Source of the DNA: an actinobacterium SCGC AAA027-J17
GTDB lineage: Bacteria; Actinomycetota; Actinomycetes; Nanopelagicales; Nanopelagicaceae
Direction of reading: 5' to 3'
Assembly (NCBI GenBank): GCA_000383815.1
Contig: KB912765.1
Location: 25,828 to 80,463, forward strand
Length of the DNA stretch: 54,636 bases
Each line of letters opens with the position of its first letter. The first letter of the stretch is position 1. The notes under the pieces are model-generated. The model saw only the letters and a program-made list of their open reading frames with translations, had not been told where the DNA came from and did no database searches. A program made the position numbers and the translations under genes. Positions 17,422 to 19,569 of this stretch are shown here, in pieces.

Positions 17422-18009
17422 CTACCGATCTGGGGCAGATTCTGGGGAAATAACAGCTTGCGCCACTTGTTTCATAGAAATTCTTCGATCCATTGCTGTT
17501 TTTTGAATCCAAGCAAAACTTTCTGGCTCAGAAAGATTCATAGCTTTCATTAAAATTCCCTTAGCTCTATCAATTATCTTGCGTGTTTCTAGTCTTTCAT
17601 ACAGATCTGCAACTTCAGTCTCTAAAGATTTCATCTGAGTGTGTCGACTAATTGCAATTTCAATGGCAGGAACTAAGTCAGAAATAGAAAAAGGTTTGAC
17701 TACATAAGCCATAACGCCAGCATCCCTAGCTCGTTCAACTAAATCGCGTTGGCTAAATGCGGTTAACATCAATACCGGAGCCAGTGTAATTATCTGCTCC
17801 GCAGCGGTTATGCCATCCATCTCCGGCATTTTTACATCTAATATGGCTAGATCAGGTTTGTGTAATTTTGCGAGATCAACAGCAACTGCACCATTCTCTG
17901 CTTGAGCAACTACCTCATACCCAGCTTCAGTAAGCATCTCCACTAAATCTAGCCGAATGATAGTTTCATCTTCGGCAACAAGGATTCGAATCTTTTTTTC
18001 AGTAGTCAT
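17422..18009 (-). CDS. pdtaR: ANTAR-domain response regulator PdtaR
   Basis: 195 residues: a receiver domain with acidic pocket ED at 13-14, phosphoacceptor Asp58 in LAILDVKMPEMDG and Lys in VVKPF, then a coiled linker and a C-terminal ANTAR RNA-binding domain (RKIIDRAKGILMKAMNLSE). It matches the PdtaR regulator found near polA, rpsA and coaE in mycobacteria, which acts by binding RNA hairpins to prevent transcription termination. The partner kinase PdtaS is not in the window. The ATG lies one base after the 3' end of a tRNA gene, an unusual arrangement that may generate its mRNA 5' end. Confidence 0.92.
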   Translation of the reverse strand: MTTEKKIRILVAEDETIIRLDLVEMLTEAGYEVVAQAENGAVAVDLAKLHKPDLAILDVKMPEMDGITAAEQIITLAPVLMLTAFSQRDLVERARDAGVMAYVVKPFSISDLVPAIEIAISRHTQMKSLETEVADLYERLETRKIIDRAKGILMKAMNLSEPESFAWIQKTAMDRRISMKQVAQAVISPESAPDR

Positions 18010-18010
18010 G

Positions 18011-18083
18011 TGCCTCGAGTCGGATTCGAACCGACACTATACGGTTTTTGAGACCGTCCTCTCTACCGTTGGAGTACCGAGGC
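18011..18083 (-). tRNA. tRNA with anticodon CAA (Leu), short variable loop
   Basis: A complete 73-base cloverleaf on the minus strand. The acceptor GCCTCGG pairs with TCGAGGC (one G-T). The D arm is CTC/GAG with A14 and GG. The anticodon stem ACGGT/ACCGT carries loop CTCAAAA, giving anticodon CAA. The variable loop is only five bases (ATAGT). The T arm is GTCGG-TTCGAAT-CCGAC and the discriminator is A; no CCA is encoded. CAA reads the leucine codon UUG and A73 fits leucine, but bacterial leucine tRNAs normally have a long variable arm. The tRNA lies 43 bases after pyk and one base before pdtaR, so the three may be cotranscribed. Confidence 0.9.
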
Positions 18084-18126: not shown

Positions 18127-19569
18127 TTACTTGCGATAAGCAGGCGCAACGCCACCTACAGCATCGCCAATTTTATGTACACGCATAGCATTTATTGAGC
18201 CGGGAATTCCAGGAGGTGATCCTGCAACTATTAAGACTAAATCGCCAAGGTTTACCCGTTTTGAATTAATCAAAATCGTATCTACCTGCATCACCATCTC
18301 GTCGGTGTGATTAACCACCGAAGTTAGCATTGATTCAATTCCCCATGACAGCGCCAAACGGTTGTAAGTTCCCACATCCGGCGTTAATGCCAACATTGGT
18401 ATCGGTGATCGCAATCTTGACATTCTTCTAGCTGAATCACCGCTTTGCGTGAATGCAACTAAGAATTTAGCTCCAACAGTTAGTCCTACTTCTGTGGCTG
18501 CTTTAGTTATCGCCCCACCTTTTGTTGCGGGTGAATGCTTCAACGGTGGTATCTGATCTAATGCAATCTCTTCAGTTCGCTCAATAATTCGAGACATAAT
18601 CTTTACAGATTCAATTGGGAACTCTCCAACACTTGTCTCCCCCGATAGCATTAAAGCATCTGCCCCATCTAAAACTGCATTGGCACAATCCGTTGCTTCA
18701 GCTCGTGTTGGTTGAGAGTTGTTGATCATTGAGTCCAGCATTTGTGTAGCAACTATTACCGGCTTAGCAGACTCCCTGGCCATAGTTATGCATTGCTTTT
18801 GAACCATCGGTACATCTTCTATTGGCAACTCCACGCCAAGATCTCCCCGTGCCACCATAATTCCGTCAAAGGCATCAACTATTTCTTGTAAGTTAGCTAC
18901 CGCTTGTGGTTTCTCAATTTTCGCAATTACTGGCACACGTATGCCAACCTCATCCATGATGCGGTGAACATCTTTCACGTCAGCTGCACTGCGCACAAAT
19001 GAGAGAGCAATAAAATCCGCACCCGCTTTAAGTCCCCACTTCAAATCTGCAATGTCTTTTTCTGATAACGCCGGGACTGAAACTGCAACCCCGGGAAGAT
19101 TCAACCCCTTGTTATTGCTTACGCTACCTGGATGAATAACTCTTGTGACGACATCGCTGCCTTTAACTTCAACAACCTCAACAGTTACTTTTCCATCATC
19201 AATCATGATCTTGTCACCAACACGACAATCTTTAGTTAGTCCAAGGTAGGTGGTACTGACTCTATCTTTAGTTCCATCTATTGCATCAGTTGTAATTGTA
19301 AATATCTCACCACGAACTAGATCATGAGGTCCATTTTTGAATTTTCCTAATCTGATTTTCGGGCCTTGAAGATCAACCAATACTGCGACAGCTTTTCCGG
19401 ATTCTTTTGCAACTTTCCTTACATTATCTAGTCTCATCTGATGTTCGGTATACCCTCCATGTGAGAGATTTAACCGAGCCATGTTCATGCCAGCAGCTAT
19501 TAGTTCAGTAATTTTCTCTACGGATTCAACCGCGGGACCGATAGTGCAAACGATTTTGGCTCTACGCAT
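18127..19569 (-). CDS. pyk: Pyruvate kinase
   Basis: 480 residues with the (beta/alpha)8 barrel N-terminus (RRAKIVCTIGPA at 2-13), KIEKPQAV, the MVARGDLGVELP catalytic segment, MLDSMI and a C-terminal regulatory domain ending in KIGDAVGG. It converts phosphoenolpyruvate and ADP to pyruvate and ATP. A -10 hexamer that begins with the gltD stop codon lies seven bases before the ATG, so it probably has its own leaderless transcript inside the minus-strand gene array. Confidence 0.97.
   Translation of the reverse strand: MRRAKIVCTIGPAVESVEKITELIAAGMNMARLNLSHGGYTEHQMRLDNVRKVAKESGKAVAVLVDLQGPKIRLGKFKNGPHDLVRGEIFTITTDAIDGTKDRVSTTYLGLTKDCRVGDKIMIDDGKVTVEVVEVKGSDVVTRVIHPGSVSNNKGLNLPGVAVSVPALSEKDIADLKWGLKAGADFIALSFVRSAADVKDVHRIMDEVGIRVPVIAKIEKPQAVANLQEIVDAFDGIMVARGDLGVELPIEDVPMVQKQCITMARESAKPVIVATQMLDSMINNSQPTRAEATDCANAVLDGADALMLSGETSVGEFPIESVKIMSRIIERTEEIALDQIPPLKHSPATKGGAITKAATEVGLTVGAKFLVAFTQSGDSARRMSRLRSPIPMLALTPDVGTYNRLALSWGIESMLTSVVNHTDEMVMQVDTILINSKRVNLGDLVLIVAGSPPGIPGSINAMRVHKIGDAVGGVAPAYRK

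Follow-up and report, generated by a model that had tools for sequence, protein, structure and literature searches.

Bacterial tRNA-Leu is a class II tRNA in textbooks. Two reviews of tRNA structure and identity (one of them PMC9976931) also treat it as class II and mention neither actinobacteria nor Streptomyces. In E. coli the leucine determinants are A73, the A15-U48 pair, G18G19 and A20a; the long arm is not crucial, and arm-less variants remain active (2023 review, PMC9976931). Human mitochondrial tRNA-Leu(UUR) has no long arm and is recognised via A73 and A14 (PMC9976931). Among actinobacteria, a short-loop tRNA-Leu(UAG) was reported as an oddity from Mycobacterium mucogenicum/phocaicum, where it sits in a tRNA cluster gained by horizontal transfer (PMC6582537). 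In M. tuberculosis, tRNA-Leu-2, -3 and -5 were named as long-variable-loop tRNAs (2024, PMC11541572); only these three were so named, implying that the other tRNA-Leu are short. That set fits two class I tRNA-Leu, and the paper is silent on the others and gives no anticodons. The text of a paper on tRNA modification in M. tuberculosis (PMC10531406) does not discuss tRNA-Leu. A search of the open-access literature turned up no account of actinobacterial class I tRNA-Leu, and one published elsewhere may have been missed.

Structure and leucine determinants of the tRNA-Leu(CAA) gene

The window, meaning the whole stretch of 54,636 nt analysed here, contained a single tRNA gene according to ARAGORN, a tRNA-Leu(caa) on the minus strand. 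Rfam RF00005 covered 18083..18011 (-) with the whole model at 57.6 bits, against a cut-off of 29 (E 6.8e-10), so that the gene lies at 18011..18083 (-) with its 5' end at 18083 and discriminator A73 at 18011. CCA is not encoded at the 3' end. Read 5' to 3', its elements are GCCTCGG, TA, CTC, CAACGGTAGA, GAG, G, ACGGT, CTCAAAA, ACCGT, ATAGT, GTCGG, TTCGAAT, CCGAC, TCGAGGC and A. The CAA anticodon, assigned by both programs and expected to read UUG, is at 18048..18050 (-). The D arm (18059..18074, -) has the leucine-type layout, a 3-bp stem CTC/GAG closing the loop CAACGGTAGA with A14, A15, G18, G19 and A20a (determinants as in PMC9976931). The variable loop ATAGT (positions 44-48; 18036..18040, -) stands where class II tRNA-Leu has its long arm, and its U48 pairs with A15. 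With 5 bases it falls within the 4 or 5 that define class I, as it does in the relatives found, and well short of the at least 10 that define class II. The initial annotation had described the same CAA anticodon, 3-bp D stem, A14, ATAGT loop and discriminator A without giving a strand; each of these elements proved correct, and both programs place the gene on the minus strand. A point against a working tRNA-Leu is that the minimum-energy fold of the unmodified RNA is a non-cloverleaf, 2.4 kcal/mol below the cloverleaf.

The leucine determinants listed in PMC9976931 are all kept in this tRNA, both those of E. coli (A73, A15-U48, G18G19, A20a) and the mitochondrial A14. The bacterial class II tRNA-Leu, of E. 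coli type or of the Streptomyces bldA type with anticodon UAA, has the same features together with a leucine anticodon, a D stem of 3 bp, an identical layout of the D loop and presumably the same LeuRS. It differs in its long variable arm, and the class II examples compared have G9 where the window tRNA has A9. From A14 onward the D loop of one class I tRNA, CAATTGGCAGA, agrees with a class II counterpart, GAATTGGCAGA. The metazoan mitochondrial tRNA-Leu(UUR) is likewise class I for UUR and specified mainly by A73 and A14 (PMC9976931); however, it is organellar and floppy and has a separate synthetase, whereas the window tRNA forms a complete cloverleaf and belongs to a bacterium that has class II tRNAs for CUN. 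The UAG form of M. mucogenicum/phocaicum is also a short-loop tRNA-Leu of actinobacteria, but there it supplements a normal class II UAG tRNA as an additional copy carried in a mobile cluster.

The absence of the long arm could instead mean that the tRNA carries another amino acid despite its anticodon. There is a precedent in a misleading CAA anticodon reported on a class I body (PMC8450103), and a full-length comparison gave class II tRNA-Leu no higher identity to the window tRNA than other class I tRNAs of the genome (Lys, Phe, Arg, Met). A misleading anticodon would be betrayed by a nearest relative in the genome that belongs to another amino acid. However, the nearest other tRNA in both complete relatives, one of the same genus (G149) and one of the same family (G188), was the class I tRNA-Leu(UAA). 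A14, A15-U48 and A73 were common to all four leucine tRNAs of each of these genomes, although the A15-U48 pair is not specific to leucine and also occurs among other tRNAs (12 of the 38 tRNAs in G149). The kept determinants also speak against another amino acid, and the sequence suggests that the window tRNA is charged with leucine.

Leucine tRNA sets and the reading of UUA and UUG

The window's own assembly is 0.97 Mb long and 72% complete. Its leucine tRNAs were the class I CAA tRNA, a second class I tRNA with anticodon UAA (L020:1501-1573; G000:C55:54292-54364) and a class II UAG tRNA. Because this assembly is incomplete, the full tRNA sets of the complete relatives were examined. G149, with 38 tRNA genes, has a class I CAA tRNA-Leu identical to the window's, a class I UAA and class II GAG and UAG, and G188, with 40 tRNA genes, has the same four types. 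No class II tRNA-Leu with CAA or UAA was present in either full set, indicating that in these genomes UUA and UUG are read by the class I pair alone and that the window-type tRNA is their only UUG-specific tRNA. Other complements occur: in the complete genome G074, class I UAA and CAA are accompanied by class II GAG, CAG and UAG; in the Streptomyces-like G023, class I CAA is combined with class II UAA; and a class I UAG tRNA-Leu also exists (L152, L164, L169).

These sets bear on the idea that the window gene is superfluous or a pseudogene, with a class II tRNA-Leu(CAA) sitting in the missing 28% of the genome. The gaps of the 72% complete assembly, from which several tRNAs are missing, leave room for such a gene, and the initial annotation had proposed a class II CAA tRNA in the same genome as the finding that would count against its reading. 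Neither complete relative has one, which rules out a hidden class II CAA gene in those two genomes.

UUA (594) and UUG (350) make up 944 of the 1702 leucine codons (55%) in 42 genes of the window. When the window's proteins were aligned with those of GC-rich actinobacterial loci, a comparison resting mainly on four or five genes of one window, UUA sites were aligned with leucine in 64.0% of cases and UUG sites in 62.7%, versus 64 to 81% for CUU, CUC, CUA and CUG. UUG thus aligns with leucine at a frequency close to that of the CUN codons, with no sign of recoding, and the leucines aligned to the window's proteins are mostly encoded by CTG or CTC in the other genomes. Strongly conserved UUR sites had leucine in nine of ten cases and valine in one. 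Codon alignment and tRNA sets together led to the rejection of a recoding of UUG. That the tRNA carries some other amino acid is extremely improbable. Of the two options that the initial annotation had left standing, the shortened tRNA-Leu reading UUG was borne out; the tRNA for another amino acid was not, since UUG and UUA behave as leucine codons, one LeuRS is present and the determinants are kept.

We are thus highly confident that the window gene encodes a normal UUG-reading tRNA-Leu in class I form, very old in actinobacteria, with a LeuRS that serves both classes. One full LeuRS above the family cut-off was found in each complete genome searched. In the proposed scheme the CAA anticodon of the class I tRNA would read UUG, its sister class I tRNA-Leu(UAA) would read UUA and could wobble to UUG, and the CUN codons would be read by the class II tRNAs with GAG and UAG. 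A single leucyl-tRNA synthetase would charge both structural classes because recognition would bypass the long variable arm and use A73 and the elbow of the D and T arms (A14, A15-U48, G18G19, A20a). The class I tRNAs would read UUG and UUA as leucine, so the genetic code would be unchanged. The gene is real, ordinary for its lineage and without coding consequences; it is probably expressed and essential.

In this lineage, and often elsewhere among actinobacteria, class I tRNA-Leu would then be the only readers of two common codons, beside class II tRNAs for the other four, and such a split set with one LeuRS offers a natural test of the laboratory result that LeuRS needs no long arm. When such a tRNA of actinobacteria or of their phages has a short variable loop, this must accordingly not be taken for mis-annotation or recoding. 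The class I structural form of tRNA-Leu seems to have been little noticed. Judging from the open-access search, the chances are about even that the phylum-wide split (UUR by class I, CUN by class II, one LeuRS) and its spread in phages are undescribed.

Conservation, neighbourhood and phage copies

The gene was present in 58 of the 61 genomes of the family (blast, at least 91% identity over at least 67 of the 73 bases), and all 73 bases were identical in five other genomes of the family. With a covariance model built from eleven class I tRNA-Leu, at least 111 of the 396 genomes from the phylum scored 73 bits or higher; the threshold was set at a small score gap, the genomes were counted by hand, and the count is a lower bound with twelve candidates scored per genome. 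The suspicion in the initial annotation that the tRNA might be shared across actinobacteria was therefore right. A pattern scan of named genomes returned at least 119 stretches, and among the matches listed nearly all were actinobacterial, including Mycobacterium, Nocardia, Gordonia, Rhodococcus, Corynebacterium, Streptomyces, Bifidobacterium, Microbacterium, Nocardioides, Pseudonocardia and others. No E. coli genome matched the class I pattern. A few metagenome-assembled genomes (MAGs) of other phyla did so with good covariance-model scores (3 of 40 genomes in one such phylum).

Among 145 distinct non-viral sequences the stems were paired in 92 to 100% per pair, at least two Watson-Crick types occurred at most pairs, and compensatory changes were seen in all four stems; positions that the search pattern itself prescribes cannot vary in this set. 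A73, which lies outside the pattern, was found in 145 of 145 non-viral and 112 of 112 viral copies. Conservation across the family and covariation of the stems show that the match of the window tRNA is not due to chance, and they also rule out a pseudogene. With the five identical copies and the covariation across the phylum added to the tRNA sets of the complete relatives, a dispensable extra or pseudogene has next to no probability.

The neighbours of the gene are also shared. A pdtaR/ANTAR-type response regulator ORF (17422..18009, -) lies on its 3' side, with homologs beside the tRNA in many actinobacterial genera, and a pyruvate kinase ORF (18127..19569, -), conserved in synteny, lies 5' of it; both are named from sequence reading. 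The CAA gene adjoins the pdtaR-like gene, and often pyruvate kinase, in Streptomyces, Bifidobacterium, Nocardioides, Pseudonocardia, Salinispora and Planktophila loci, and a closely similar tRNA with the same neighbour gene was found in Candidatus Planktophila versatilis (L182), which makes a freshwater acI actinobacterium (Nanopelagicaceae) the probable source of the window. The same neighbourhood in such distant genera indicates that the locus is old.

A phage origin was also considered, class I tRNA-Leu being common in phages. At least 120 viral contigs matched the class I pattern, as did GenBank phages of Mycobacterium, Rhodococcus and Streptomyces, in which the matches are annotated simply as tRNA-Leu. 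However, the window's own CAA sequence had only one weak phage match, and in many distant genera the gene occupies the same site, next to pdtaR and often also to pyk. This shared locus is better explained by vertical inheritance of an old actinobacterial gene than by import by phage, and we regard a phage origin as very unlikely.

Several minor observations concern these and other tRNA genes. The viral class I tRNA-Leu(UAA/CAA) (L289-L368) had more varied acceptor stems than the chromosomal ones and always A73. G328 has a second class I tRNA-Leu(caa), which starts with C1, scores low with the model (L163:8429-8502) and is possibly phage-borne. Class I tRNA-Leu(UAA) was seen in MAGs named Christensenellaceae, Planctomycetota, Rokubacteria, Gemmobacter, Deltaproteobacteria and Flavobacteriaceae (L177, L186, L189, L192, L211, L230); these could be phage-borne, contamination or real. 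The ATG of the pdtaR-like gene begins one base past the tRNA 3' end in the window (18007-18011, -), and likewise in many of the Nanopelagicaceae loci examined; processing of the tRNA tail could thus leave a leaderless or nearly leaderless pdtaR-like mRNA. Elsewhere in the window's genome, a tRNA-Val(gac)-like gene (L028:1500-1574) has a mismatched anticodon stem and is possibly decayed or foreign, while a normal tRNA-Val(gac) is present in L017. G188 likewise had a second Val(gac) call (L122), which differs in sequence.
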